From a virus: DNA of 40,565 nucleotides. This document shows positions 2,102 to 34,597 of the stretch, piece by piece; within the stretch, counting starts at the first letter, position 1; each line of letters opens with the position of its first letter. The notes below the pieces were generated by a model, which saw only the letters and a program-made list of their open reading frames with translations, was not told the origin of the DNA and did not search any database. Made by a program: the position numbers and the translations under genes. The stretch lies in IMG/VR virus record IMGVR_UViG_3300044614_001381, positions 1 through 40,565 of that record; one strand, written 5' to 3'.

Positions 2102-2764
2102 ATGAAGAACGTTCAACTGCTTTCGATTTTGTTTGTTCTTTTGATCCAATCGGTTGCGTTTTGCCAGCCAGTTAAACCAAGTGACCAAGAAGACCATTGG
2201 TCGCTGTCAAGAAAACTGACTTACTTTCCGGAACTGATTCCGGAACGAGTCCCGCCTCCAAATTCTGATCAAAACCCAACAAATATCCCAGTTGGGCAAA
2301 TTGGTGATTTTGCTGCTTGGTCGTTTATGGTTCTGCAAATCGTTGATGATAAAAACACGATTCTACAATTAGGACGAAATGCGTATTGGCTAGCGGATTT
2401 CGAAAACGAAAGTCTTGCTGATGGCGACAGAATCAACCTGGTAGGACCTTGTAAGATGCTGGAATCGAAAACCTACACTACCGTCGATGGGGCGAAAAAA
2501 ACCGTTCGCGCCTTCAAACTGATCACGCCAGAGGAAATGCAAAAGCAAAGGCTAGCCAGTTTGAAGGATAAATTTGAAGTTTTGGAATTGAAGAGTGGCG
2601 AGGAGCTGAATGCGTTTGCGATTAGCAACGAAAAAGGGCTTATTTCGCTTGTCGATTTCGAAGGCAAAACACATGAAGTCAAACTAACCGAATTGACTTT
2701 AAAGGCTCAAGCAAAAGTTCGAAATCAACTGAAGATCTTTAACGGTTTGAAGCGACCGCGATAG
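2102..2764 (+). CDS. Secreted protein with C-terminal SHD1-like domain, probable lysogenic conversion gene, 220 aa
   Basis: Residues 1-20 form a signal peptide: Lys near the start, a Leu/Ile/Phe core, then a small polar boundary before Gln-Pro-Val. The C-terminal 55 residues (about 163-217) resemble the SHD1 domain that is very common in planctomycete exported proteins, with alternating beta residues, a Gly-Lys turn and a Val-Lys-Leu-Thr-Glu-Leu strand. The middle has a small beta-rich fold. The gene is AT-richer than its neighbours and lies between the control region and the integrase, the usual place of a cargo gene expressed in the lysogen. Its 3' end overlaps the converging integrase gene by 26 bases. 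The function is unknown. Confidence 0.65.
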   Translation: MKNVQLLSILFVLLIQSVAFCQPVKPSDQEDHWSLSRKLTYFPELIPERVPPPNSDQNPTNIPVGQIGDFAAWSFMVLQIVDDKNTILQLGRNAYWLADFENESLADGDRINLVGPCKMLESKTYTTVDGAKKTVRAFKLITPEEMQKQRLASLKDKFEVLELKSGEELNAFAISNEKGLISLVDFEGKTHEVKLTELTLKAQAKVRNQLKIFNGLKRPR

Positions 2765-3782
2765 CCTGGTCCCGTCGGATCTTGGCATAGATCTTCGAAG
2801 TCTCCACATCGGCATGGCCAAGAACTGCGGCAACATGCTCGAGATCGTGCGAATCGCGGATCTCGTTGGCGGCTTTATGCCGGAGCTGGTTCGGGCTCCA
2901 CGGGGTGACCTTAGCACGTTCGCAGGCTCGACGGATGGCACGGCCGTACGATCCCGTACAATAACCTTTCGAAGATCTTGAACGGAACAAGACCCCTTCA
3001 CCGCGTTGATCCAGATACCGCTGAAGGATGGCCTGAGCTTTCGGCCCAACGTAAACGACTCGGGTTTGGTCCCGATGTTCGTTCTTGTGATGTTCAAAAT
3101 CGATTTCCCAAATGGGTTTCGATTTGTCGACCATGGCTCCAGTCATCGCGCAGAGCTCGCCCGGCCGACATCCGAGGAGCAATTGCAAATTGACCATATC
3201 GGCAATGATTTTGGACATCTCGGGAATAGCTTTGTCGATGTCTTGTTTGGTGACGGCCTGAACCTTTTTGGATTCGGGAGCCGAGGTCTTTCCTTTTTTG
3301 ATCGAAGCAACTTCCCGAACGGCAGCGATCACTTTTGAATCGATAAGTTCCTCGCCAGTGGCCCAAGAAAGCATTCGAACAATCAACCGCATGCATTTGT
3401 TGACGTACTGTCGCGACCTGTTTTTCCCTTCTTTGGAAAACTGAGAACGGAGTGTTTTGAACTCAGTAGGTCCGAAGTCGTCAGCGTTCTTGAACTCGTA
3501 TAATGAAACGAGGCAAGTAATCACAAGTTTGATGTTATTGATTTCGCTCTTAGATTTGTAGTGAGATTCTGAGAACTCAATATAAGAAAGGCATATACTG
3601 CCTATTGTGTTCTTTCTCTTGTTCTTTCCGAACGAATGTTTGTTCGAAATGAACTCAGCGATCAACAGTTCATACTTCCGGACGGTCGCGGGTTCTCCAT
3701 GCTTCCCGCAGTAGTAATCCTTGCCTAAGATCCGGACGACACTCTGGCCGGATGCGTGCTGGCACAACTTTGGAACTCGCAT
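2739..3782 (-). CDS. int: Tyrosine recombinase (prophage integrase), 347 aa
   Basis: The catalytic domain shows Arg206 (Cys-Arg-Pro-Gly-Glu-Leu), Arg301-His302 in the Gln-Leu-Arg-His box, His323 (Leu-Gly-His) and the nucleophile Tyr332. The position normally occupied by the first His of box II (His-x-x-Arg) is Asn298, a small deviation. The N-terminus (Gly-Gln-Ser-Val-Val-Arg then Gly-Lys-Asp-Tyr-Tyr) matches the start of integrases common in planctomycetes; here it also has Cys/His residues that might bind a metal. A tRNA-Met 3' half lies 100 bases upstream, so this enzyme most likely integrates the phage into that tRNA gene. It is unrelated in type to the integron-like recombinase at 29264-30259. 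Confidence 0.9.
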   Translation of the reverse strand: MRVPKLCQHASGQSVVRILGKDYYCGKHGEPATVRKYELLIAEFISNKHSFGKNKRKNTIGSICLSYIEFSESHYKSKSEINNIKLVITCLVSLYEFKNADDFGPTEFKTLRSQFSKEGKNRSRQYVNKCMRLIVRMLSWATGEELIDSKVIAAVREVASIKKGKTSAPESKKVQAVTKQDIDKAIPEMSKIIADMVNLQLLLGCRPGELCAMTGAMVDKSKPIWEIDFEHHKNEHRDQTRVVYVGPKAQAILQRYLDQRGEGVLFRSRSSKGYCTGSYGRAIRRACERAKVTPWSPNQLRHKAANEIRDSHDLEHVAAVLGHADVETSKIYAKIRRDQAIAVASNR

Positions 3783-4447: not shown

Positions 4448-4833
4448 AATCAGGTCGGACATTCGAGAAGGGCCTTCACGAATCGTCAGACGCTAGTTCT
4501 GCCGAATTGGTATGGTTGGACTACTCAGCCTATTTGAAGATTCGGGCGGCCAAGAAACTTTGCGCAAAAGAGGCATCGCACCCCATCTGGTCGGTGTTCT
4601 CGGATTGTGGAACCGAAAACCATGATCAAGACCAAAACGAAGGCGACCGAGGCCCGAAGAAATTTATTTTTCAAAACGAAATTTCAAAAAAAGAATTTCG
4701 CAAATCTAAAATCGTGCCAAACTCGACGAAAATTTTCTTGGGTCCCTCCACGCGATTGCGTTTGCTTGCGGTAAATAAGCCCCAGTTATACGCCGGTCCG
4801 TTAGGTCCCTGGAGTATTCAAAGTGATGACACG

Positions 4834-4865
4834 AAAAAACCCAGGCTTTGCGACCTGGGTTTTTT
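4834..4865. terminator. Bidirectional intrinsic terminator
   Basis: Six A, CCCAGG, an 8-base loop, CCTGGG and six T form a symmetric hairpin with a T-run on both strands. On the minus strand it ends the leftward late operon (terminase and upstream genes), 25 bases after the last stop codon. On the plus strand it would stop any transcript leaving the attP/box region. Confidence 0.9.
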
Positions 4866-4890
4866 GTTTTTTTCGTTTCGAAAAAATTTC

Positions 4891-5208
4891 TTAGATCTCG
4901 ATCTGTAACCGATCGGCCTGTTCTGCGATCCATCTGAAGGCGTCTTGAACAGTTGTTACGGGTCTCTTATTTATGAGGGTTTCGCCCGATGATGAGAGGC
5001 CGAGTTGTATTCTCTGAATGCTTCTTGCTTGAAGTTCATTGAACTCAAATGTAAAATGTTTCTTGCAATATCCTGATAGATTCTCTTCTCTCATCGGAAC
5101 CGTGAGCGTGACATTATCAAACGACACGACAGTCTTTTTCTCTTCCACCCTGGCTGGTTCGACGTTTTCCACGTTCGCTTTTTTGGCTGTGCTTGGTAGT
5201 GAATTCAT
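4891..5208 (-). CDS. Late-operon protein of unknown function, 105 aa
   Basis: This is the last gene of the leftward late operon, six bases after the large terminase gene. The product has a disordered Lys/Glu-rich N-terminus (residues 1-28), a central region rich in beta residues and a helical C-terminus. I recognise no domain. Its place beside TerL makes a packaging role conceivable, but it shows no helix-turn-helix such as small terminase subunits have. Confidence 0.65.
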   Translation of the reverse strand: MNSLPSTAKKANVENVEPARVEEKKTVVSFDNVTLTVPMREENLSGYCKKHFTFEFNELQARSIQRIQLGLSSSGETLINKRPVTTVQDAFRWIAEQADRLQIEI

Positions 5209-5214
5209 TCGCCA

Positions 5215-7212
5215 TCATCTCCTTAATTTCTTCCCCGATTCCTGCCGATCCCTAGATTGTTGCACCTCTGGCAAGGATTGCAATTCAGTAGCCTGAATAA
5301 ATCCTTGCATTGCAGCTGCCGCGCACGCCATGTATGTCGCGTCTAGCCAGTGATTGTTGGGCGAGACCTGGACGAACTTCCGGCGAACGCCGAGCCCAAG
5401 ATCGAAAGATTCTCGGTACTCTTCAGCGACGATGTGCTTTGAGAACGAAGCGTGATGCTTCACCCTGGAAGGTCGATAAAGTGTGAGCGTGTTCGGGACC
5501 TGGTTTCCTTCGCTGTCGAACGGCTCGATCGAGAATCGTTCGTGAACCCATCTTTTCCAGTAGTTCGCGTCTGGGTGGTAAAGCCAGATCCCTTCGTTCT
5601 CCTGGAGCTGCGTGTACCAGTGGGATCCCAAGATTCGCTCTACCTGGCGGCTCGCGGGTTCGAAGTCTTTTGGTTTGGGGCCCTGGCCTTCTCCGTATCC
5701 TTTTGCCGCGGCGAATTGCGGCCGCTCGTCAGATTCTCGGACGAACTGATAAATTGCGTCCTTCAGAACTCCGTCCGAGGAATCGATCAGCGACCAGTCG
5801 GGAACGTAATCCGATTCTGCCAGGTTGTCGCGGAAGTCGTGTAGGGCCGCGATCAGCGAACGCTCGACGGACTTCTTCGGAGTCGAGGCTCCGATGTTGT
5901 TCACCTCGACAACTCCATAATCGACGATCATGCCGATTGAATTGGCCTGCCAGCCGATCTTCGTCCAGTGGCAATATCGCTTGCCAACGTCCAGCCCGAG
6001 CGTGACGCCTTCAATCTCAGCAGGAAGTGAACCCTGTTCGTAACCGTTTGTCCGAGCTTCCACGATCCTGGCCGTGAGCGGCTCCTGGGAGTCGGTCTGT
6101 TCGTCCGTGTGCGATGTGTCGTTCTGGTATTCCAGCATAAACGACTCGATTCCCTTGTCGGCAATGAAGTTCATGCAAGCCTGAAGGGCCGAAACTTCGA
6201 TCGGGTTTCCCTTGGGGCTAAGCATATTGTTGAATCGGTACGGATTGGAAACGACACAATCCCGATCCATCTCCACCTGGTTGGCCAAATAGTATTCGGA
6301 GGCCTTCCAAGCGAACGGATCTCCGTTTTCTTGGCACTCTTTTCGAATCGAGAAGTATTCGTTTTCCCAAAGGTCGCGACGTGCCGGCCACTTTTCGATC
6401 AGCCCGCGCCGAATGCCGCCCCAGGCCGGGTAAATTTTTCGATCAGTGAGCTTGGCAGCGAGTGAATACCTTCCCTGGATGGTAACCAGAGCGACCATCC
6501 CCAGTTTCCCGTCTGGTCCCTTCAGGCCAGAACAGTCGTTGTTGATGATCTTTTCGCGAACTGCAACCTGCTTTGGCTCCCTTGCCGATTCTTCCGTTTC
6601 TGGATCGTCGAACAGTAAAAAGTTTGGTCGCTTCTCTCCGATGCAAAGTCCGCGAATCGCCCCGGTGATTGACAAAGGGTAGATGATCGAGCCAGAACAA
6701 GGAGATCCGTCAACAGTCGGAAACTGCAAATACTCGTTGGTCCAGTTAATTTCGGTATGAATTCTTCCGACCGTTTGACTGTTGGCTTTTCGTTGTTCGT
6801 TGCCAAGTAGTTTGCAGAGGTAGCCGATTTCTGGAAAGTCTTCGACGAATATCGGACTGACAACCATTTTTTTGATGTTGTCCAAGATCCGAAGTGAAAA
6901 TGTGTCATTGACTGCGATCGGAACCGAGAAGTCGATATACCCTTTCGTGGTCGCGAACAGAATCACCCCTTCGGTGATTTTCGTTTTCCCGTCGCCTCGA
7001 GGGTAGGCTATCGCCTTTTGGGTTCCGTATTCTGCAGACTCCAGAACGGCGTCGATGACTTCGTTCTGGGCGCGAGTGAACGGATTCGGATAGATCCAGC
7101 GAAAATAAGTCTTGAAGAACTTTCGAGGATCTGTAAGGCAAAGTGAGCGACGTTTTGGATTTTTAATTGCAGGAAGCTTGATGTCGTTTTCGAACGCTCG
7201 GCGTTCCTGCAT
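5215..7212 (-). CDS. terL: Terminase large subunit, 665 aa
   Basis: This is the DNA-packaging motor. Residues 71-77 (Pro-Arg-Gly-Asp-Gly-Lys-Thr) are the deviant Walker A typical of terminases. Residues 197-203 (Asn-Phe-Leu-Leu-Phe-Asp-Asp) form Walker B, followed by Glu residues. The C-terminal RNase H-like nuclease is marked by Leu-Gly-Leu-Asp408-Val-Gly, a second acidic site at Leu-Ile-Asp-Ser-Ser-Asp, and His-Trp-Leu-Asp near the end. Length is normal for the family. No small subunit was recognised nearby. The gene lies on the strand opposite the portal and capsid genes, about 5 kb from them, so the usual terminase-portal-capsid order is broken. Confidence 0.93.
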   Translation of the reverse strand: MQERRAFENDIKLPAIKNPKRRSLCLTDPRKFFKTYFRWIYPNPFTRAQNEVIDAVLESAEYGTQKAIAYPRGDGKTKITEGVILFATTKGYIDFSVPIAVNDTFSLRILDNIKKMVVSPIFVEDFPEIGYLCKLLGNEQRKANSQTVGRIHTEINWTNEYLQFPTVDGSPCSGSIIYPLSITGAIRGLCIGEKRPNFLLFDDPETEESAREPKQVAVREKIINNDCSGLKGPDGKLGMVALVTIQGRYSLAAKLTDRKIYPAWGGIRRGLIEKWPARRDLWENEYFSIRKECQENGDPFAWKASEYYLANQVEMDRDCVVSNPYRFNNMLSPKGNPIEVSALQACMNFIADKGIESFMLEYQNDTSHTDEQTDSQEPLTARIVEARTNGYEQGSLPAEIEGVTLGLDVGKRYCHWTKIGWQANSIGMIVDYGVVEVNNIGASTPKKSVERSLIAALHDFRDNLAESDYVPDWSLIDSSDGVLKDAIYQFVRESDERPQFAAAKGYGEGQGPKPKDFEPASRQVERILGSHWYTQLQENEGIWLYHPDANYWKRWVHERFSIEPFDSEGNQVPNTLTLYRPSRVKHHASFSKHIVAEEYRESFDLGLGVRRKFVQVSPNNHWLDATYMACAAAAMQGFIQATELQSLPEVQQSRDRQESGKKLRR

Positions 7213-7263
7213 TAACTTTCGTTGGTATTCGCTACTAATGATAGACCTTTAGTTTCGAGCTAC

Positions 7264-7752
7264 TCACCCCTCCACCCCATACGCTTCCTCTCTAGTTGCA
7301 TCTCGCATGATTGCATTGACTTCGTCGCCATCAAACACACCCGATTGCAGCACGTATCCCACGAGATCTTGGAAGTCTTGAGAATCAAGCACGACAGGCC
7401 AATGATGCGCTCGATATGCTTCGATAGTCTTGCCAACTGTCACTAGCGTTGCATCATCCGAGGCAAGGAGCGTCACCATGTCCTCTTTTGAGACGCGATT
7501 GTAAAACGCTTCACCCTTTAGGATGCGTGGGTTGAAAGGTCGGTACTGTTCGAGGTCTGCTACCTTGGCCTGTAGCGTGGCAATGGTTGCGTTTGCCTCC
7601 TCCAGTTCTGCCTTCTGTGCATCGACAAACACCTGATAAGCCGCAAGCACTTCAGCCCGTTTTGGTGCGTGGTTGCTGATAACGTCAACGATGTTACCCG
7701 CTGGGATTCCGTCGATTGTGATGCTGTCAATTGTGGTAAAAACTACGCTCAT
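7264..7752 (-). CDS. Protein downstream of the tail fibre, coiled-coil, 162 aa
   Basis: Residues about 30-70 form a coiled coil (Glu-Leu-Glu-Glu-Ala-Asn-Ala-Thr-Ile pattern, ending Asp-Leu-Glu-Gln). The rest is mixed helix and strand with no known motif. It starts two bases after the tail-fibre stop. Genes in this position are often fibre assembly chaperones or a distal fibre subunit, but the sequence itself does not settle that. Confidence 0.65.
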   Translation of the reverse strand: MSVVFTTIDSITIDGIPAGNIVDVISNHAPKRAEVLAAYQVFVDAQKAELEEANATIATLQAKVADLEQYRPFNPRILKGEAFYNRVSKEDMVTLLASDDATLVTVGKTIEAYRAHHWPVVLDSQDFQDLVGYVLQSGVFDGDEVNAIMRDATREEAYGVEG

Positions 7753-7753
7753 T

Positions 7754-8953
7754 TTAAAACCTTATAACCGTTGCCCTGAATGTGCCTGAAGCTGGATCGA
7801 CGGAACCGCCTGAAGAATTGTGCATGCGAACCGTTACCGTATCTGCCGCTGTCACCGATGCGCAGAAAACTAAGCCCGCATCTAATCCCGCTGGACAGCC
7901 CAAGAATACGCTGTCACCGGCGACTGCTCCGGTGACTGTGATCGTTAGCGTCTCAGTGCCGTTGCTACCAATTGACGGAAAGTCTAGCGTTGCGGTTGCG
8001 GATAGGATGTTGGCAACAACTGTGCCGCCACCGACTCGAAGCGTTCCCGATGCGGTTAGGTTGCCTGTGACGTCAACGCCAGTCGTACCCCAAAGCAAAG
8101 AATCACTACCAGTAACACCCAGCGATGCCCCGTAACCCAATCCCCATCGTGTAGTATCTTTTCGATAGATTTGTCCGTAGTTCGAGCCGTTTGAATTTAG
8201 AACAAACGATGGTGTTGTGATTCTGTCCGAGTAGACGTATGAAGTTACCGTCAAGGCTCCTGCAAAGCTACCCGTTCCCGATGCTGTTAGGTTGGTACAC
8301 CCGAACGGAGCACCCGCACTGTTGGCATTATTCCTGGCCTCAATCGTCCCTGAGTTATTGCGAAACAGTGGACCACTAGCCCCACCGACCATAAGCGTCG
8401 TCGCAGCAAGATTGCCAGCGACAACCTGCCCACCTGCACTATCAATCAACTCCACCGTCCCCCGCGACAATCGGGCATCGATTCGATCTGTTGTCGAATC
8501 AACAAGTATCGACCCAACTGGTAACGCACTAGCACCCTCTAGCGTGGTGATCTGTGCTGTTGTCAGGGACTTGAGTTGCAAGCCAGGGGTGGTTGTGCCG
8601 GTGAAGGATTGCAGGCCGGATAGCGTCAAGCCTGCAAAAGTGACGTTGCTTGAAGTTGCTAAGCCAAGCAGCGATCTTACGACACTAGAGCTAGATGCTT
8701 GGGCAACAGCATCAACACCAAGGGCGTTACACAGCAAAGTTCCGGACGGAATCGTTGCTAACTGTCCGTAACTTGCCCCTGCGAGCAAAACATTAGCCGA
8801 CAATCGAGCGTCCGAAAGCGTACCTGATACAAGTAGCGAAGCGTCCGTTGTTGCTGCACCAGCCGCACCCGTTGCACCTTGCGGTCCTCGTTGGTTCGAA
8901 TACTCGATTGTGTACTGCGTTTGAGGTTGTACCTGTAGCGTGTAGCTCGTCAT
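7754..8953 (-). CDS. Tail fibre / receptor-binding-type protein with collagen-like start, 399 aa
   Basis: Residues about 24-34 contain a short Gly-Pro-Gln-Gly-Ala-Thr-Gly-Ala-Ala-Gly collagen-like run, followed by Ser-Gly-Thr-Leu-Ser-Asp-Ala-Arg-Leu, a motif widespread in phage fibres. The body is rich in Thr, Ser, Gly and Ala with many repeats of the type Leu-Thr-Ala-Ser-Gly-Thr, as in beta-helical trimeric fibres. The last 80 residues form a separate beta-rich domain that may bind the receptor. Its start overlaps the end of the next gene upstream by four bases. Confidence 0.8.
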   Translation of the reverse strand: MTSYTLQVQPQTQYTIEYSNQRGPQGATGAAGAATTDASLLVSGTLSDARLSANVLLAGASYGQLATIPSGTLLCNALGVDAVAQASSSSVVRSLLGLATSSNVTFAGLTLSGLQSFTGTTTPGLQLKSLTTAQITTLEGASALPVGSILVDSTTDRIDARLSRGTVELIDSAGGQVVAGNLAATTLMVGGASGPLFRNNSGTIEARNNANSAGAPFGCTNLTASGTGSFAGALTVTSYVYSDRITTPSFVLNSNGSNYGQIYRKDTTRWGLGYGASLGVTGSDSLLWGTTGVDVTGNLTASGTLRVGGGTVVANILSATATLDFPSIGSNGTETLTITVTGAVAGDSVFLGCPAGLDAGLVFCASVTAADTVTVRMHNSSGGSVDPASGTFRATVIRF

Positions 8954-9318
8954 GATCGGGTAATCTCCCGGCTCATCAAGACTTTGCCTTCCTGGATGCG
9001 TTCAGTCAGTCCACCTGGGCGCGTCAGTTCGTAATCGTAATAGTACGTCGAAGCCTTGTCTGTCGGCTTTGCTCCGAGCGTTGTGATCGCTGTCGTCGTC
9101 GCTTTTGGGACAGTAACGTAGATTCGATCCTCGGTCGTGTTGACGGTAAACGTAAACGAAAAAACAACGGTCGAAGTGCGAAGTTCTCCGTCTCGTGCCT
9201 TGCCTTCGATCGTGCATCCGGTCAAGTCGTCAGCCACTCCATCTTCGTCAAGAATCTGGAAGTCCTCTGCCCAATCTGCACCCTGTTCGATGTAAAGATT
9301 CCTAACTGCTGCGCTCAT
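8950..9318 (-). CDS. Small virion-associated beta protein (baseplate/fibre-connector type), 122 aa
   Basis: The order of elements is typical of small phage proteins found between fibre and holin genes: an N-terminal Gln-Gly-Ala-Asp-Trp strand, Asp-Leu-Thr-Gly-Cys-Thr, an alternating beta region, then Tyr-Tyr-Tyr-Asp-Tyr-Glu-Leu and a closing Gly-Lys-Val-Leu-Met-Ser-Arg-Glu-Ile-Thr-Arg. Such proteins probably form an immunoglobulin-like or baseplate connector domain. It overlaps its neighbours on both sides by four bases, so the group is co-translated. Confidence 0.6.
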   Translation of the reverse strand: MSAAVRNLYIEQGADWAEDFQILDEDGVADDLTGCTIEGKARDGELRTSTVVFSFTFTVNTTEDRIYVTVPKATTTAITTLGAKPTDKASTYYYDYELTRPGGLTERIQEGKVLMSREITRS

Positions 9319-9623
9319 CGGTTGCCCTCGTGCTTTCGTGCAAAGTCTGTCCCGTTGTTGTCAATCGAACTCACCCGCTTCTCTAGTACGTCTAGCTTAA
9401 TTTTCATGACTTCGCAGGACGTAAATAAAGAATGGCGATCTTCTTCACACTTGTCCGCTTTGCCATTGATTTCAGTCAGACTTTTTTCGAGCTTACTAAT
9501 CGCTTGTGCATTCTCTGATTCCCTCATGCGAAACAACGTCACAACGCCAGTTAAAAGTGTTGACACGATAGCACCTATGCCTGCTAGTACCCACCCTGTA
9601 AGTCCGTTCGCTTCCGCGCTCAT
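9315..9623 (-). CDS. Single-pass membrane protein with coiled coil, holin/spanin candidate, 102 aa
   Basis: Residues 9-31 are a hydrophobic membrane segment (Gly/Ala/Ile/Leu/Val), followed by Arg and a long amphipathic coiled coil (about 38-88) with two Cys. This architecture is seen in class III-type holins, in spanins and in some tail-associated proteins. It lies between the fibre genes and other membrane-protein genes in what looks like the lysis block. The precise role is an inference. Confidence 0.6.
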   Translation of the reverse strand: MSAEANGLTGWVLAGIGAIVSTLLTGVVTLFRMRESENAQAISKLEKSLTEINGKADKCEEDRHSLFTSCEVMKIKLDVLEKRVSSIDNNGTDFARKHEGNR

Positions 9624-10087
9624 TTCGATTGCTTGGCTTTCTCGAATGAGTCTTTTGTCAGTGGTCCATCGACCTCAAACCGCGATCCGTCAGAATCATA
9701 AACTTCAAACCAAGGCCACATTCGTTTCGATTCGATCTCAGTCAGCACGTCAACAGTCCATCCGACTCGCTCCCACTTAGATTGCTCTTTGGACTTCCAA
9801 AGGTTGCATGGTCCGCAGCTCGCGCCAGAGTGCATGATAATTGTCGGCTTGACTTGTGGTGCAGATTGTTGCGGTTGCTTCTCAGCTTTGAACCTTGCGA
9901 ACACCTCCCGCAAGTCTTGAACAGCTGCGCCAAGTATTTCAACCGTCGCGTCTGTTTCGTCTGCCAGTGCGTCAATCTTGCCCTGCGTGATTGCAAGACG
10001 TGCCTTTATTTGCTGATACTCGTGATTGATCGCGAGTAATGCAACGGCACCGACGACTAGAAGTATGGCTGGCATTTGTTTTCCCAT
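9620..10087 (-). CDS. Membrane-anchored thioredoxin-like protein, 155 aa
   Basis: Residues 6-22 are a membrane anchor, residues 24-70 a coiled coil, and residues 80-150 a thioredoxin-like domain with the classic active site Cys-Gly-Pro-Cys at 91-94 following a beta strand (Thr-Ile-Ile-Met-His-Ser). The N-in/C-out orientation suggested by the charges would place the redox domain outside the cytoplasmic membrane. It may reduce or form disulphides in lysis or virion proteins; the Cys-rich tail protein at 23711-25381 and the neighbouring cysteine peptidase are plausible partners. The thioredoxin call is by motif. Confidence 0.7.
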   Translation of the reverse strand: MGKQMPAILLVVGAVALLAINHEYQQIKARLAITQGKIDALADETDATVEILGAAVQDLREVFARFKAEKQPQQSAPQVKPTIIMHSGASCGPCNLWKSKEQSKWERVGWTVDVLTEIESKRMWPWFEVYDSDGSRFEVDGPLTKDSFEKAKQSK

Positions 10088-10092
10088 CCTTG

Positions 10093-10938
10093 TTACCCCA
10101 AAATCGATTGTTTCGTGAAGTCGAACTTGATCGGCCTAGGACGAGGCGAGTCCATATCGCTGCGTCCGTACATGCTGGTCCATCGGTGGGCAATCATTTG
10201 GTCGCATGCTCTGGGGTCAACGTAAGCATAGCCAGACTTGCCCCAACGCTTCGACCAACTGTTTTTTAGAAGCAACCACCAGCCTGCCGAACTTTTCACA
10301 CCAACGTCGGAATCGGGAACGTAGCCGGCAAATACAATCGCGTGACCGCCACCGCCGCGACCGGAGAACGATCGAATGCAACCTTGCGAGTCCGGTGTCA
10401 TCTCGTTACCCCAAGTGATACCGAGCTGAACGATGCCGACACCAGAGCCGATGAACTTCTTGATCTGTTCAGCCGATTTCATTTCTGTATGGCTGTTCAA
10501 CTTGTAGATAGCCTTGTCCCGCATGGCTTGCGTAATGTAGCCCCAGCCAGGGTAGCGGTTGCCTGCGTACGGCGCGACGGATTCAATGGGAAAGCCCTTT
10601 TTGAATGCCCGTGTACCACCTTCGAGAGTCGATCCCGAATCGGATCGGATGTTATTCTCCATCTGGCTGGCAATGTAGGCATATTGCCGAGAAATCTGAA
10701 TTACTTCACCAGTTGCGAAAGCATGTGCGAACTCACCGCAACAGCTCAAGGATTGGCCCTGGCAACTTCCTTGCTGTTGTTGATCTTCGACCTGAAGGAA
10801 CCCTTGCGAACCCAGCGCAGAGGAACGCGGGTCCATCCTCTCTGGCAGGTCGCCAAGCATTAGCAAAACGGCCTCTGTTGCGGAAGATCGCAGTGCATCG
10901 CGGTCTTCAAGTTCGATCGGATAGCCATAGTTTTCCAT
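10093..10938 (-). CDS. Papain-like (C1A) cysteine peptidase, 281 aa
   Basis: The papain triad can be read in order: Gln-Gly-Ser-Cys59 with the oxyanion Gln just before it; a Gly-Gly-Gly-Gly-His-Ala-Ile-Val-Phe-Ala-Gly-Tyr His box; and Leu-Lys-Asn-Ser-Trp-Ser-Lys-Arg-Trp-Gly, the Asn-Ser-Trp box. Cys65-Cys66-type extra cysteines make the exact nucleophile slightly uncertain. There is no signal peptide. The gene lies among membrane-protein genes in the leftward late operon, and no peptidoglycan hydrolase is recognised in the whole genome, so this peptidase may act in lysis or host-envelope entry. That role is an inference; the family is clear. Confidence 0.85.
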   Translation of the reverse strand: MENYGYPIELEDRDALRSSATEAVLLMLGDLPERMDPRSSALGSQGFLQVEDQQQQGSCQGQSLSCCGEFAHAFATGEVIQISRQYAYIASQMENNIRSDSGSTLEGGTRAFKKGFPIESVAPYAGNRYPGWGYITQAMRDKAIYKLNSHTEMKSAEQIKKFIGSGVGIVQLGITWGNEMTPDSQGCIRSFSGRGGGGHAIVFAGYVPDSDVGVKSSAGWWLLLKNSWSKRWGKSGYAYVDPRACDQMIAHRWTSMYGRSDMDSPRPRPIKFDFTKQSILG

Positions 10939-29263: not shown

Positions 29264-30259
29264 CTATCCAGCTTTGCTTTTTTGCTTTCCAGCCTTAAGG
29301 ACCAGAGCAAGAGGATTTGGAACATCAGAGATCCCAGTCGGGTCGACGTGGGTATAGATCTGAGTCGTTCGAATATCGTTATGGCCAAGAAGCTTTTGAA
29401 TCGTCCGCAGGTCGGTTCCCGAATGCAGATGTAATGTCGCGAACGTATGCCTGAGCGTATGGGCCGCGACCTTCTTCCGGATCTTGGCCTTCTTGGCCGC
29501 TTCGGAGACCTGGCTACTGACGTTATCTGGGTGAACGTGCCAACGACCTGTCCAGTGTTCGGTTGGGTGGCGGCTCAGCTTGGCCGCGCAAAACAGCCAA
29601 TACCACTCGATCGAGCTCGCGGCCTTCGGATACTTACGATCCAAAGCGTTCGGCAATTCGACTCTGGCTACTCCGTCCTCTACGTCCCAAGCGTGGATCT
29701 TTTCTGTGTTCGCAACCTGAGCCAGCAAGTCGTCTTTGATTGCACTAGGGATCGGAACGATGCGATCTTTGTTCCCCTTCGATTGCCTCACGTGAATGAA
29801 ATCGTTATGGAAATCGATGTCCTTGACTCGCAATGAACAAGCCTCGGAAACGCGAAGACCGCAACCGACCATCAGTTGAGCGAGAAGCAAGTTCTCACCG
29901 TTCATTTGTTCCAGCAACAACGAGGCTTCTTTGGCACTCAAGACGACCGGAATATAAGTCGACTTGCGAGCTCGCAAAGCGTTGACGCCTTCCATGGGCA
30001 GCTTCAGAACGTCTTCGTAAAACAGGCAAACCGCTGCAAAAGCTTGGTTTTGCGAAGATGCCGAAAGCTTTTTATCTATCGCTAAATGGTTCAGCCATCT
30101 TTCGAAATCCCGAACGCCAAGATCCTTCGGATGTTGCCACATGGTCCCCCGGCGATTGAATCGAATGTATTGCTCGACGTGAGATGAATAAACGTCGATC
30201 GTACTTCGTGCGTAATGCCTACCTTTCATGAATTCCTTGAGTTGTTCCATGAGTTTCAT
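29264..30259 (-). CDS. intI: Integron-type integrase (IntI family tyrosine recombinase), 331 aa
   Basis: The catalytic residues are Arg136 (Gly-Leu-Arg-Val-Ser-Glu), His267-x2-Arg270 (His-Thr-Leu-Arg-His), His293 (Leu-Gly-His) and Tyr302 (Ile-Tyr-Thr-His-Val). Residues about 203-245 (Pro-Asn-Ala-Leu-Asp-Arg-Lys-Tyr-Pro, then Trp-x-Leu-Phe, Leu-Ser-Arg, and Trp-His-Val-His-Pro) form the extra segment that separates IntI from XerC/XerD and contacts extrahelical bases in folded attC sites. The ending Asp-Val-Pro-Asn-Pro-Leu is also IntI-like. The length is standard. It lies beside an attI-like site and four attC hairpins. It is codirectional with the cassette genes, unlike most integrons. Confidence 0.9.
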
Positions 30260-30285: not shown

Positions 30286-30347
30286 CGTTTTAATCAGAGT
30301 CTCGACCCCGTTTTAATCAGAGGGGTCGTGTAATAATTGTTCGCACG
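30286..30347 (+). other. attI: Probable attI site with two direct repeats
   Basis: The 80 bases upstream of intI hold two exact copies of CGTTTTAATCAGAG (30286-30299, 30309-30322) and a 7-base inverted repeat (CGACCCC 30303-30309, GGGGTCG 30322-30328), then GTTCGCACG at 30339-30347. That last core is the exact reverse complement of the R'' box of the first cassette's attC (30590-30598), which marks the insertion point between G30339 and T30340. Known attI sites also have two direct repeats beside the core. Confidence 0.75.
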
Positions 30348-30362
30348 AGAGGCGTTCGTGAA

Positions 30363-30650
30363 TCATCCCTCACCGTGTTTCCGCTGAGCCCGCAGGTTTG
30401 CGTCAGCGGTCGATCCGAATCGCTCGCGAAAGGACTCGACAAAGCTATCTGCGTACTCGTCTCTGCACGTATAAACAACTCCCATTTGACCCGCCATTTT
30501 GTACATAACCTGTCGAACCCATTCGCACTGCTCCTCGAATCGAGCACAGTCGTGCGAACGGGCCGGTATTTCCATCCTCTGTTCGCCTCCGTGCGAACAA
30601 CCGGATGCAACCACATCGGGCAATGTCGAATCTTCGCTTCGCTCTATCAT
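30363..30650 (-). CDS. Cassette 1 protein of unknown function, 95 aa
   Basis: The start ATG (30648-30650) and its ribosome site GGAGAG lie in the loop of attC1, and the left arm of attC1 encodes residues about 10-20. The product is soluble and helical, with Cys at 18, 35, 42 and 62 and a Trp-Val-Arg-Gln-Val-Met motif. No family is recognised. It is the cassette next to attI, so in standard integron logic the most recently acquired. Confidence 0.7.
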   Translation of the reverse strand: MIERSEDSTLPDVVASGCSHGGEQRMEIPARSHDCARFEEQCEWVRQVMYKMAGQMGVVYTCRDEYADSFVESFRERFGSTADANLRAQRKHGEG

Positions 30651-30690
30651 GCTTTTCTCTCCGATGTTGTTGATCCCGGCCCGTTCCCCT
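30589..30690 (+). other. attC: attC1, recombination site of cassette 1
   Basis: R'' CGTGCGAAC (30590-30598) and a left arm CCGG...CATCGG pair with the right arm CCGATG...CCGG and R' GTTCCCCTG (30683-30691). The left arm has one extra G at 30607, nine bases after R''. The 41-base loop carries the start codon and ribosome site of cassette 1. R'' and R' do not match beyond GTTC because R' belongs to the next cassette, as expected after recombination. Confidence 0.8.
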
Positions 30691-30693
30691 GAC

Positions 30694-31518
30694 CTAGAAC
30701 AACACGCCCTGGGCCAGTCTTTGTTGTGAAATCTCGACGTATTCGGGATTCACTTCGATCCCGATGAAGCTACGTCCATTGTGTTTCGCCATCTTCGCCG
30801 TTGTGCCTGAACCGCTAAACGGATCTAGCACAATGTCGCCTTCGTTGCTCCACGACAAAATGTGATCGCGTGCTAACTCATCTGGAAAAATTGCCGGATG
30901 ATCTGTTCCGTTGCCCGCTGTCCCGTATCTCCAGATGTTTGACCTGCGGCTGTACTCGCCGGTTGTAATGAACTCATCGTCGTACTTTTCGTTCCTGCCT
31001 TTGTTTATGACCTTATCTTTTCGCCTTGTCTGGCCGCAGGTTGCATTCTTGTGGTCAGTGATAAAATTCAACGCCTTTGGCTTTCCCTTGGAAATGACAA
31101 ACATGTACTCCATGACGTTGTAATATCTTCCTTCGGTCGGAATACGGCTTGCCTTTTCCCATATCATCGTGTCATACAAACACAATCCTATGTCACGGAA
31201 AAACTGTGCCTGATACATACTTGAAAGCGTCTCGGAGTGGTTGGATGTTTGATCGGCTACCACCCAAACGATAACGCCACCAGGTTTCAATAACCGTTTA
31301 AGATTCCACGCTACGCCGTAGAAATCCCATGCGTGCCCTCCATACGTTCGCAGGTCGTCGTATGGCGGTGATGTGACCACCAAATCGATTGATTCACTTG
31401 GCATCTTCCGCATGACTTCGCAATTGTCGCCGCAGATAATGCGGTCCAATGGCAACGAAGGCAGGGGAACAAAGTCATGCATCGAAGCCGGACTTGCGGC
31501 TGTTTCTATTTGATCCAT
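30694..31518 (-). CDS. Cassette 2: beta-class DNA methyltransferase, 274 aa
   Basis: The motif order is that of beta-class amino-methyltransferases: catalytic motif IV Thr-Ser-Pro-Pro-Tyr (49-53) near the N-terminus, and S-adenosylmethionine motif I Asp-Pro-Phe-Ser-Gly-Ser-Gly-Thr-Thr (232-240) near the C-terminus. A target-recognition region lies between (about 120-215). SPPY methylases modify N4-cytosine or N6-adenine. No restriction enzyme is nearby, so it is an orphan, which in a phage would most likely protect the DNA from host restriction. The start codon lies in the loop of attC2; its first 20 residues are partly encoded by the attC arm. Confidence 0.9.
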   Translation of the reverse strand: MDQIETAASPASMHDFVPLPSLPLDRIICGDNCEVMRKMPSESIDLVVTSPPYDDLRTYGGHAWDFYGVAWNLKRLLKPGGVIVWVVADQTSNHSETLSSMYQAQFFRDIGLCLYDTMIWEKASRIPTEGRYYNVMEYMFVISKGKPKALNFITDHKNATCGQTRRKDKVINKGRNEKYDDEFITTGEYSRRSNIWRYGTAGNGTDHPAIFPDELARDHILSWSNEGDIVLDPFSGSGTTAKMAKHNGRSFIGIEVNPEYVEISQQRLAQGVLF

Positions 31519-31558
31519 GTTTTTCCTTTCCGGCTCGATGATGACATGCGTTCCACGG
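31461..31558 (+). other. attC: attC2, recombination site of cassette 2
   Basis: R'' CAGGGGAAC (31462-31470) is followed by spacer AAA, arm GTCAT-G-CATCGA-A-GCCGG, a 38-base loop, arm CCGGCTCGATGATGAC, spacer ATGC and R' GTTCCACGG (31550-31558). Two left-arm bases have no partner: G31479 and one of A31485/A31486. The loop contains the methyltransferase start codon (31516-31518) and its AAGGAAA ribosome site. Confidence 0.88.
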
Positions 31559-31560
31559 AC

Positions 31561-31893
31561 CTACTCCGGCCCGTACTCTCGTTGCTCTGACTCGTAGCTT
31601 TCGCGTTGCTCAATCCACCGCTCAACATCTGCCAGCCGTTTCGCTAGATGCTCAATCGTCATCCTGCCCGCTTGGATTCGTCGGTACGGTTTGCACCTCT
31701 CCAGAATCTCATCGCACGCGGTTTGGTATCCACGCGAAAACTCGCCCATGTCTGGGCAAAACGACTGACTGCGAACGTACTTCACTTCTGCAACAATGCG
31801 TCCCAACTCCTCAATGAGAAGCGAAATCTGCTTCGATCCGTTGCCTACCACGCAACCTTCGATTGCTCTCGCAATGTATTCTTCATCTTTCAT
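31561..31893 (-). CDS. Cassette 3, promoter-distal ORF of unknown function, 110 aa
   Basis: A soluble helical protein with an acidic N-terminus, two Cys near positions 46 and 60-66 and a charged coiled-coil tail (Arg-Leu-Ala-Asp-Val-Glu-Arg-Trp). The stop is two bases after the conserved R' of attC2. Its start is not in an attC loop: no hairpin separates it from the ORF upstream, so cassette 3 carries two genes. The ribosome site (GTGGG) is weak. Confidence 0.7.
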   Translation of the reverse strand: MKDEEYIARAIEGCVVGNGSKQISLLIEELGRIVAEVKYVRSQSFCPDMGEFSRGYQTACDEILERCKPYRRIQAGRMTIEHLAKRLADVERWIEQRESYESEQREYGPE

Positions 31894-31922
31894 GTTCGAC
31901 CCACTTGTAAAGAAATCCTTGA

Positions 31923-32432
31923 CTACTCGCCGACCACTTGGACGGCACCACGACCTGTCTCTGACGCTATCCGCAACGCCGAGACCACCGCATCATGCTG
32001 ATTGTTTCTTGCGCAAACGGGTTTCCCGTTTTCATCCGTGACCGTGTACTCGACCAATCGCTGCGCACCTCTGGCGAACACATTCCGCTTTAGCGTCCAT
32101 GTCTTCATCGCCTTATCCTTGCCAAAGAACTTTCTCATTTGATGATCCTCTTCAATGAACACCTTGCAGACTTCATCAAAGCTCTTGCAATTGGCGTATG
32201 GGTTTTCTGTCGGTATCGTCTCAATCATGTTGTCCACGAGGTCAATGACCTCTCTGAGCGTGTTGGCTTTTACAATCCATTGGCTGCGAATCACGCCCTC
32301 CATGTTGTCCGCTCTTGCTCTTGCGGTAGTCTCGGACTTCTCTAATCCGTTCCGCAGCAACTCCAAAACCTTGATGGCCGTGGAACAATTGGATGCATCG
32401 AAGCACCCGGTAACGTCGTTCGGTTTGTTCAT
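31923..32432 (-). CDS. Cassette 3, first ORF of unknown function, 169 aa
   Basis: The start at 32430-32432 is chosen over an upstream in-frame codon because a strong GAGGAG ribosome site lies 6 bases before it, both inside the loop of attC3. Residues about 6-20 are encoded by the attC arm. The body is helical to about residue 75. The C-terminal half contains a small beta domain (Thr-Trp-Thr-Leu-Lys-Arg and Leu-Val-Glu-Tyr-Thr-Val-Thr-Asp-Glu-Asn-Gly-Lys) followed by a helix. No family is recognised. Confidence 0.75.
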   Translation of the reverse strand: MNKPNDVTGCFDASNCSTAIKVLELLRNGLEKSETTARARADNMEGVIRSQWIVKANTLREVIDLVDNMIETIPTENPYANCKSFDEVCKVFIEEDHQMRKFFGKDKAMKTWTLKRNVFARGAQRLVEYTVTDENGKPVCARNNQHDAVVSALRIASETGRGAVQVVGE

Positions 32433-32473
32433 AGTTTCTCCTCGGGTGCTCGATGATCCAAAGCGTTCCACGG
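32378..32473 (+). other. attC: attC3, recombination site of cassette 3
   Basis: R'' CCGTGGAAC (32378-32386) and R' GTTCCACGG (32465-32473) are perfect complements. The next parts are spacer AA(TT) against (AA)GC, as in classical attC sites, and the arms TTGGAT-G-CATCGA-A-GCACCCG / CGGGTGCTCGATGATCCAA. Extra bases on the left arm only are G32395 and one of A32401/A32402. The 33-base loop holds the start codon and GAGGAG ribosome site of ORF 31923-32432. Confidence 0.9.
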
Positions 32474-32475
32474 AC

Positions 32476-32889
32476 CTAGCTTGTGGCTTCCTTGGCCGTG
32501 GTGACATCGTGCATGTACAAATTGCGAGCAAAGCTATTCACTCGCTGCTGAATCTTTTGCATCGCACTTGCGTATGATGCGTGCCTGTCCATCGCTCGAA
32601 AATCCTTGATCACCTGAGCGTACTTTGATTGCTGCGTTGCAATCTGTTGCTCTGACCATGCGTAATCGTACAACCGCTGCAACGTGTCGATTGCTCGCTC
32701 TCTGTCTGTGACTTTCGCAGGCGTTGGCACTGTCGTAAACGGGTCTGAAAATCCTTGTATCTTCGACACCTTCGACTTGAATAGCGTTTTTGCGATTGTC
32801 TTCCACCGTTCAATCTCGTCCGCTGCTTCGTCGGTTATGCCTCCTAGCTGATCGGAATAGGTTCTCAATCTTTCAACCAGATCACTCAT
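32476..32889 (-). CDS. Cassette 4: phage-type coiled-coil protein, 137 aa
   Basis: The ATG at 32887-32889 begins Met-Ser-Asp-Leu-Val-Glu-Arg-Leu-Arg and continues Ile-Thr-Asp-Glu-Ala-Ala-Asp-Glu-Ile-Glu-Arg-Trp, a pattern very common at the start of small phage early proteins. The rest is helical. A longer frame from TTG at 32919 would begin in R'' of attC4 and is less likely. Unlike the other attC-proximal cassette genes, it starts just outside its attC, after an AGGG ribosome site. The function is unknown. Confidence 0.75.
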   Translation of the reverse strand: MSDLVERLRTYSDQLGGITDEAADEIERWKTIAKTLFKSKVSKIQGFSDPFTTVPTPAKVTDRERAIDTLQRLYDYAWSEQQIATQQSKYAQVIKDFRAMDRHASYASAMQKIQQRVNSFARNLYMHDVTTAKEATS

Positions 32890-32908
32890 TTGCGTTACCC
32901 TGAAAAGG

Positions 32909-33000
32909 CCGTGGAACAATTGATTGCATCCAAGTCGCGTAAACAGTCGCTTGGCAGTGGATGCGTTACTGCCGCGACTGGATGAATCAAAGCGTTCTAC
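32909..33000 (+). other. attC: attC4, terminal recombination site of the array
   Basis: R'' CCGTGGAAC (32909-32917), the arms TTGATT-G-CATCC-A-AGTCGCG / CGCGACTGGATGAATCAA, and R' GTTCTAC (32994-33000). Extra left-arm bases are G32926 and one of A32932/A32933. R' is hybrid: it matches R'' only at GTTC, because the bases after GTT belong to the flanking gene 32997-33845, whose stop codon they contain. The loop has its own small hairpin (GGCAGT/ACTGCC) and no start codon. A 16-base stretch around R'' is identical to attC3. Confidence 0.9.
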
Positions 33001-33845
33001 AAACTATCATCCAGCATGTCTTCGAACTCGACGGATTCCGGATTCGATACCGAGGCCGATTCGGAATCCGCGTCGTCTTCGAAACCATCGTCCAGAAAAT
33101 CGTCTTCTTCTAAGAAGTCTGCGCCAGTCAAGTCGACCGGGATGCCGAACGTTTCTTCCTTCTGGGTGGCCATGTTCGCGACCGCGATTTCGCCCGATGC
33201 CGATTTCTCAAGCATCTTTGAAAACTCTAGCATCACGTCCCCGATTCTAGTTTCCAATTGGTCCGCGATCGCTGAGCCAATTCCCTTAGGCAATACTTCC
33301 TTGAATGGCTTATGCATCAAACTGGCCTTGTTGCGAGCGTCTTCGAGATCTCCAAACGTTGGGAACTCCGAAAGAATTAAATCTCGCTTCTTAGTCCCAA
33401 GATTCTCGATCCCTTCAAGCACTCGTTCGGTCGAAATCGTTCTCCATGAATTGTCCGTTGGAGCTTCAGCCCCCGAGCTGCTGGCGGCAACTTGCGATTG
33501 CGGGCCGCGTTTCTTCAGAGCCACCAGGTAATCCAAAGCTTCTTTGTATTCGGCCTTGCTTAGCTTTAGCGTGGCTTCCAGGTCTGCGCGACGAACAGCA
33601 CATTCGGCCAGATCCTTTTCGGCGGCTTCGATCTGCTGTTCATGCTGCAATTGCAAATCAGGATCAGCGTCGACCGATGTAGCAACATTCGTTACCGATT
33701 CCGAAACTGACTCAGGAAGCGTGTCCACTTGAGCGACCACCGAAACAGGCTCGAAACTCGATTCGGTTGCGGTGTACTGTGCTTCAGGAATGTCCGGCGT
33801 TTCGACGGCTTCAATAAACTCTTCCGATCCTTCAAACAACATCAT
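32997..33845 (-). CDS. Early-operon acidic protein with coiled coil and HhH-like region, 282 aa
   Basis: The start at 33843-33845 is supported by the ATGA overlap with the nuclease gene; the longer frame overlaps that gene by 230 bases. The N-terminus is acidic and disordered. Residues about 60-110 form a coiled coil. Residues 140-215 contain Ile-Glu-Asn-Leu-Gly-Thr-Lys-Lys-Arg and Leu-Pro-Lys-Gly-Ile-Gly-Ser-Ala-Ile-Ala, resembling helix-hairpin-helix DNA-binding turns. The C-terminal 40 residues are almost all Asp/Glu/Ser. It may be a DNA-repair or annealing accessory factor. Its stop codon lies in R' of attC4. Confidence 0.65.
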   Translation of the reverse strand: MMLFEGSEEFIEAVETPDIPEAQYTATESSFEPVSVVAQVDTLPESVSESVTNVATSVDADPDLQLQHEQQIEAAEKDLAECAVRRADLEATLKLSKAEYKEALDYLVALKKRGPQSQVAASSSGAEAPTDNSWRTISTERVLEGIENLGTKKRDLILSEFPTFGDLEDARNKASLMHKPFKEVLPKGIGSAIADQLETRIGDVMLEFSKMLEKSASGEIAVANMATQKEETFGIPVDLTGADFLEEDDFLDDGFEDDADSESASVSNPESVEFEDMLDDSL

Positions 33846-34597
33846 GTTTTTCCTTTGCTGTGCTTTTTCCAGTACCTGCGCAGGATCTGGAAGGTTGTCA
33901 GTTCCGCTAGCCTGCGAACGTCGCAGAATATCCACGGTACTGTATAGTCCGTTTGCCAGGCCAATACCTGACGATGAAGAATCTTTTGATTCTCTTGCTT
34001 CGTTTTCTTCCCCCGAGATTCGGCTGAACCAATCAGTTCTCCGAAGCTGCATTCGACCACCACCGCAGACGACCGGCAACTGGAAAGGAACGATAGAGTT
34101 CGCTCGAACCGTTCGCGGCGTTCACCCCAGCCAAGGATGGTGGACATTGCGTCGTCCAGTGACTTTCGTTCGACGTGACATTCCCCTGGTTGGATTCCAA
34201 CAATGGTATAGTCCCCCCGAGTCGGCCCGATGGTTCCGTATTGCTTTTCCACAATCAACGGTCTCTTTCCGTCTTCCGCATCGGACGTTATCCCGATGAA
34301 GTCAAACGGTATCTTTTCCTGTTCGTCAATCAAGATCGTAAACGGGCAAACGATGGATCGATCTTCGTCGCTGAGCTGTACCGTTCCGACTCGGGATTCG
34401 GCCAGGTGCGATTGCCAATAAGTCGTCGTCTGATCCCCGCGCAAGGTGAGCCCCTTCGCTGCCAGATGCAACCGCAACAGGTTCAGCGTTTGCGGCCCGA
34501 CATCATCGATCGCAAGGACCGATTCCGGAGTGACATCCCCCCAGTCGTTCAGCTTGCTGATCCCAAGCGTTTCGCGTATCCGTTCGAATCGAGACAT
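33842..34597 (-). CDS. ERCC4/XPF-type structure-specific nuclease, 251 aa
   Basis: The C-terminal two thirds carry the ERCC4 nuclease signature: Ile-Leu-Ile-Asp-Glu-Gln-Glu-Lys (first Asp), then Tyr-Thr-Ile-Val-Gly-Ile and Val-Glu-Arg-Lys-Ser-Leu-Asp-Asp, followed by Phe-Glu-Arg-Thr-Leu. The N-terminal 60 residues contain Ile-Asp-Asp-Val-Gly-Pro-Gln-Thr, a helix-hairpin-helix. Family members cut branched or flap DNA. Its start shares one base with the RecD2 C-half gene, so helicase and nuclease are likely to act together in phage recombination-dependent replication. Confidence 0.85.
   Translation of the reverse strand: MSRFERIRETLGISKLNDWGDVTPESVLAIDDVGPQTLNLLRLHLAAKGLTLRGDQTTTYWQSHLAESRVGTVQLSDEDRSIVCPFTILIDEQEKIPFDFIGITSDAEDGKRPLIVEKQYGTIGPTRGDYTIVGIQPGECHVERKSLDDAMSTILGWGERRERFERTLSFLSSCRSSAVVVECSFGELIGSAESRGKKTKQENQKILHRQVLAWQTDYTVPWIFCDVRRLAELTTFQILRRYWKKHSKGKT

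Follow-up and report, generated by a model that had tools for sequence, protein, structure and literature searches.

A putative phage integron with inverted cassette genes that start inside their own attC sites

When the Shine-Dalgarno (SD) sequence and ATG of a gene lie inside an attC recombination site, does that start belong to the cassette whose site it is or to whichever cassette comes to lie beside it? The question is raised by a locus in a 40,565-base IMG/VR virus record (the whole stretch is referred to here as the window), in which genes for terminase, portal, head protease, major head protein, and primase are present. An intI gene on the minus strand (29264..30259; 331 aa) scores 343.8 bits against TIGR02249, for which the curated cut-off is 265, and thus belongs to the integron subfamily of tyrosine recombinases. 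A second tyrosine recombinase, a phage-type integrase (phrog_1/216), is encoded at 2739-3782, suggesting that integration and cassette recombination have separate enzymes in this phage. We read the region next to intI as a phage-borne integron, with IntI, a probable attI, and four cassettes whose genes are inverted and read toward and along with intI; the probability of this reading is roughly 80%.

The cassette array beside intI

The candidate attI (30286..30341, plus strand) contains the direct repeat CGTTTTAATCAGAG at 30286-30299 and 30309-30322 and ends in the junction TAATTG^TTCGCAC, with the crossover at 30339|30340; the junction box GTTCGCAC is the complement of the R'' box of attC1, GTGCGAAC. 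All four cassettes lie on the minus strand, and all four attC sites have the plus strand as their top strand. Cassette 1 (30340..30683; boundaries from the polarity of G^TT) holds a gene for 95 aa (30363-30650, minus strand), without a match in family scans, whose ATG lies with an SD (GGAG) in the minus strand of the loop of its own attC1 (30596..30685). This site is the weakest hairpin of the four, with one bulge on each arm. Cassette 2 (30684..31550) encodes an N6/N4 DNA methyltransferase (30694-31518; PF01555, 9.8e-42), the coding strand of which is backed by Pfam and PHROG matches; in attC2 (31468..31552), the 5' arm of the top strand bears two bulged bases, and the minus strand of the loop bears SD AAGGA and ATG. 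Cassette 3 (31551..32465) has two genes (31923-32432, 169 aa, and 31561-31893, 110 aa), with SD GAGGAG and ATG on the minus strand of the loop of attC3 (32384..32467). Cassette 4 (32466..32994) holds one gene (32476-32889, 137 aa). Its site, attC4 (32915..32996), had been overlooked in an earlier, sequence-only reading of the locus; the loop has no SD-ATG, and the gene starts beyond the site, at 32889. The R' box of attC4 (GTTCTAC) holds the stop codon of the phage gene at 32997-34079.

Imperfect hairpins with extrahelical bases, an unpaired spacer, and AAC...GTT ends were found at attC2 to attC4 and, less clearly, at attC1. The R' boxes of the window (GTTCCAC, GTTCCCC, GTTCTAC, and GTTCGCAC) keep only the GTT core of the consensus GTTRRRY, to which those of most other inverted arrays conform. 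GTTRRRY is typical of R' and does not define it; the crossover core is G^TT only.

The minus-strand starts read CGGAGAGAAAAGCATG in attC1 (ATG at 30650), GGAAAGGAAAAACATG in attC2 (31518), and CGAGGAGAAACTATG in attC3 (32432), just as the sequence-only reading had described. Its loop lengths (41, 38, and 33 bases) became about 38, 36, and 33 nt on realignment, the third unchanged and the first two shorter. The distance of 42 to 43 bases that it gave between the upstream stop and the ATG was recovered locally (43, 42, and 43 nt), but the spacing is not constant elsewhere: the in-loop starts of other phage integrons follow the AAC of R' by about 26 to 56 nt. An arm coding for the N terminus up to about residue 20 had also been seen correctly, the inner arm of attC encoding roughly residues 10 to 21 in cassettes 1 to 3. 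Because phage homologues of the methyltransferase align only from about residue 21 to 28, its predicted attC-encoded N terminus is a tail outside the conserved domain. Of the mRNA hairpins predicted for these three sites, those of attC2 and attC3 fold strongly (z -3.5 and -7.1) and that of attC1 weakly (z -1.3); attC4 also folds strongly (z -4.3).

The polarity of the sites determines what these starts belong to. In attC2 to attC4, the plus strand of each site has two single bulges, both on the 5' arm, and an unbulged 3' arm; attC3 and attC4 are bounded by AAC-AA...AAAGC-GTT. The attC scanner used here returned the same one-sided bulges on the expected strand of bacterial arrays beside intI. 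The bulge side is thus that of canonical arrays, which makes the plus strand the attC top strand and places the G^TT crossover at the right of each site. If cassettes are cut at G^TT, R'' is expected to pair with R' of the previous junction rather than with the next R' in the array. Such matches were found in the window: R'' of attC1 (GTGCGAAC) with the attI junction, R'' of attC2 (CAGGGGAAC) with R' of attC1 (GTTCCCCTG), and R'' of attC4 (GTGGAAC) with R' of attC3 (GTTCCAC) and not with its own GTTCTAC. Across 43 pairs in inverted arrays, R'' matched the preceding junction at a mean of 3.28 of 4 positions, its own linear R' at 2.16, and the partner expected under reverse polarity at 2.40, and the corresponding values in canonical arrays were 3.37, 2.14, and 2.26. 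Together with the natural recombinants described below, bulges and R''/R' matching are three independent signs of the polarity read from these sequences. The attC polarity relative to intI is therefore canonical, and every cassette gene in the window lies on the attC bottom strand. Cassette genes on the top strand, reading away from intI, are typical of integrons without being part of their definition; since all those of the window lie on the bottom strand, we class the array as an integron variant. This inversion of the genes relative to attC is the main departure from known integrons and had gone unseen in the sequence-only reading.

Inverted arrays and predicted starts within attC in other phages

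IntI loci were collected by an alignment-based search (about 150 viral and 80 bacterial). A DNA pattern, GCGTTCCACGGACC, gave 88 chance loci and no arrays in viral contigs; a single-sequence search for close IntI relatives returned distant recombinases only, and the IntI of L264 as query found only its own contig. The attC scanner was home-made and requires only an imperfect hairpin bounded by AAC and GTT; its gap penalties and bulge limits were tightened because a looser version gave high-scoring chance sites in shuffled sequence. Coding strands were assigned with home-made codon scores trained on each intI, as training on long open reading frames (ORFs) misjudged L297.

Among 24 viral arrays of canonical attC polarity, all on contigs that are fragments, the genes lie mainly on the bottom strand of attC in 18 and on its top strand in 4; in the small bacterial comparison set, 7/7 arrays are top-strand and 0/7 inverted. 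Five further viral arrays have attC on the intI strand, and their genes are normal in four and inverted in none, so that genes run with intI in both layouts. The strand assignment agrees with family matches. Bottom-strand (gene-strand) ORFs, 66 in number, matched 58 PHROG families, with several DNA methyltransferases among them, and none was matched by the 49 ORFs on the opposite strand; Pfam gave 12 families on the bottom strand versus one marginal match on the top strand. One bottom-strand ORF, L175:10271-10960, overlies intI and is to be discounted. The gene past the last attC runs with intI in 15/15 scorable inverted arrays versus 1/5 canonical arrays. In the IntI tree, inverted arrays occur in several lineages, with at least four label changes forced by well-supported branches; the window and L264 fall outside the main inverted clade, the branch of L264 being long and its placement unsure.

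Several of the contigs carry phage genes. Terminase genes were found in those of L121, L264, L287, L290, L297, and L338, and matches to phrog_2, which we take to be a family of large terminases, in those of L304 and L325. The long ORFs of L300, L319, L331, L337, and L124, as a group, match tail, endolysin, spanin, and integrase families. PF17289 and phrog_12 gave no match in the ten contigs searched with them. One inverted phage cassette ORF (alignment A3) matches the Acb2/Tad1 hairpin domain, which suggests anti-defence cargo. At L264, an attC at 9289-9373 adjoins intI with no clear gene behind it and is possibly a gene-less cassette or an attI end; L113 and L296 have attC sites in both orientations near one intI.

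To ask how often attC holds a start, we took the attC sites of inverted arrays with loops of at least 22 nt (n = 35) and counted SD-starts of ORFs of at least 40 codons. A predicted start lay in the loop on the gene strand at 23/35 of these sites, compared with 1/35 on the other strand and 1/35 for attC sites of canonical integrons; 300 shuffles of the loops only gave 2.6 +/- 1.4 SD-starts, with a maximum of 7. Chance is thus excluded at the level of the set. The clearest independent case is L121, in which MTTDDAGVAPLQRPVMQHTPGPW..., MTTETHNTHPGDHAPQPLALK..., and others start in the loop with an attC-encoded tail. The layout is not universal: attC4 and short-loop sites carry no start within the loop, and where loops are only 2 to 9 nt long, the start usually lies about 15 to 40 nt past R''. 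By these predictions, SD and start within attC are a recurrent layout, present in a dozen or more further phage contigs, and the double role that the sequence-only reading had proposed for attC, as recombination site and translation-start region, would extend well beyond the window.

Part of this pattern could arise by compaction. If phage genes overlap non-coding elements, the loop is the sole unstructured part left for a start, and its use would have no function past saving DNA. Such an account fits the placement of starts inside long loops and 15 to 40 nt outside short ones, and canonical cassettes likewise have a stop in R'' and a start just past R'. It leaves the inversion of the genes unexplained, however, and inversion is found in several IntI lineages, always matching operon direction; we consider coincidence through compaction a serious possibility, though not one that we favor.

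The hairpin might also act as an RNA device, in which the mRNA stem exposes SD and ATG in the loop and tunes translation, so that its structure is selected for expression as well. The RNA folds of attC2 and attC3 do leave SD and ATG mostly unpaired. Over 24 sites, mean SD/ATG accessibility was 0.60 versus 0.53 with the arms shuffled, a small gain (p = 0.05), and ordinary genes on these contigs come close (0.53, n = 16); several sites have SD within the stem, and in many phage attC sites the start is outside the hairpin altogether. The presentation of the start codon in an open loop, as suggested in the sequence-only reading, is accordingly weak as a general feature, and selection for such a device seems unlikely. 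Each attC with a start in its loop would be the translation-initiation region of a cassette gene, and the question of which gene is answered by cassettes that have moved.

Natural recombinants of cassette 3 and a proposed route of insertion

Cassette 3, with the same attC, is also present in three other IMG/VR contigs (L264, L265, and L266) at 90.8 to 92.8% DNA identity; its protein had no match in named phages. In all four contigs, homology begins exactly at the AAC of attC3, the DNA before AAC being unrelated, and spans SD, ATG, and both genes. In L264, it ends at GGTCCGTGGAAC, right at the R box, where the next cassette starts; in L265, the far end diverges earlier than the R box. The break at AAC indicates that the attC bearing the start moves with its gene, and cassette 3 in four contexts, together with the R''/R' rule, identifies these units as mobile cassettes joined at G^TT. 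The stem arms of attC3 are identical in 4/4 contigs, with differences confined to the loop and to positions beside the R box, and the SD core GAGGA and the ATG are kept in 4/4 as well. Between the window and L264, codons 22 to 165 differ at 24 synonymous and 3 nonsynonymous positions, which fixes the coding strand of the cassette 3 gene.

These recombinants bear directly on the proposal, made in the sequence-only reading, that the site is a start module for any inserted cassette, in which case the start of a neighboring site would serve each newcomer and yield an N-terminal fusion at each insertion. Read alone, the minus strand does run stop, hairpin, ATG, gene, like an upstream attC feeding the next gene. 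The bulges and the R''/R' matches have the opposite polarity, and in L264 to L266 the attC3 arm, SD, and ATG travel with the gene past a different upstream neighbor each time. For cassette 3, the start-for-any-neighbor model is ruled out, and for the others we hold it to be highly improbable. By polarity and recombinants, a gene belongs to the same mobile unit as its SD and ATG, and each cassette would thus arrive with a start of its own: attC is, on this evidence, the predicted translation-initiation region of its own cassette and not a generic start for its neighbor.

The following route would account for the layout. Each cassette would be a mobile circle cut at the G^TT of R'. In its linear form in the array, the stop codon of the gene lies at or beside one junction (R'), and in cassettes 1 to 3 SD and ATG lie at the other end, in the variable loop of the cassette's own attC. 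Insertion by IntI at attI would allow one orientation only; that polarity is set by bottom-strand recombination is established for integrons (PMC8946536). With insertion polarity fixed, only an inverted gene would be in sense in a phage operon running toward intI. Inversion would thus put the cassette gene in sense with the leftward replication operon of the phage, and attC would then sit exactly at the ribosome start, the hairpin being both recombination site and translation-initiation region. This presumes that IntI would act on the sites of the window, that the cassettes would be expressed by read-through from the phage operon, and that the start codons would be used.

Relation to known integrons

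The reverse integrons of Treponema have intI directed at attI (PMC3607928), and intI shares its direction with the cassette genes, as it does here. That type is nonetheless scarcely credible for the window, where the cassettes lie 5' of intI and the attC top strand is opposite to intI; reverse arrays proper, whose attC sites are 3' of intI and on its strand, were found separately (L013, L109, L129, L038, and L042). In the Treponema type, the genes follow the direction of attC and it is intI that is reversed, whereas in the window intI and attC are canonical and the genes are turned. One phage with the Treponema geometry is L013 (Virus Rctr41k, KX853513; a DAMO enrichment virus), in which 4680-10097 is an unannotated reverse-type integron with at least six attC sites 3' of intI and on the same strand, the intI gene being annotated "xerD." The viral contigs of L102, L109, and L129 also have attC on the intI strand and 3' of intI and form one supported IntI clade.

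Canonical bacterial integrons (class 1 and chromosomal; L024, L040, L051, and L057 in our set) share with the inverted phage arrays the IntI family, the structure and polarity of attC, the G^TT crossover, and the R''/R' rule. Their genes, however, lie on the attC top strand, read away from intI, and start just past R', whereas those of the phage variant lie on the bottom strand and start inside their own attC.

Phage integrons and CALINs are known (Qi et al. 2023, PMC9892861). The phages of that study resemble the window in having intI, attC, cassettes, and DNA methyltransferase cargo, and some phage attC sites recombine with IntI1. For TJE1 and PH101, the study reports cassettes in one common direction, in a typical array, in contrast to the inverted genes of the window, and the parts of the text consulted do not mention inverted arrays or start codons in attC. 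In our own scan, the only strong intergenic attC of TJE1 lay on the gene strand, and P12002L yielded no convincing array.

There are precedents for recombination sites with a second role, in the translation of cassette genes. In class 1 integrons, ORF-11 of attI1 and attC hairpins affect cassette translation (reviewed in PMC8876359; Jacquier et al. 2009, as cited in PMC8946536). Those class 1 sites lie outside the reading frame of the cassette and couple or hinder its translation, whereas the attC sites of the window contain SD, ATG, and the first codons. Our literature search, which covered published papers, mostly open-access ones, returned neither an inverted-cassette integron class nor a start codon in attC.

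Thought to be non-coding, attC can thus carry an SD sequence, a start codon, and coding sequence. According to integron theory, the choice of attC strand exists so that inserted genes are in sense with Pc. The integrons of these phages keep this strand choice yet turn the genes, indicating that the polarity of recombination is fixed and the side of expression free. We tentatively propose, at somewhat less than even odds, that phages keep an integron class of their own, in which inverted cassettes carry a self-sufficient start in attC, whatever cassette is captured would be read from a phage operon, and the attC hairpin may regulate translation. Captured by a Pc-driven bacterial integron, such cassettes would be antisense and therefore silent, which, if true, would partly separate the cassette pools of phages and bacteria. 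The inverted layout offers a marker for phage-adapted cassettes and a prediction of which ones can be expressed after transfer between phage and bacterial arrays. It further draws attention to a reservoir of small cargo genes in phages, with DNA methyltransferases and an Acb2/Tad1-like domain among them.
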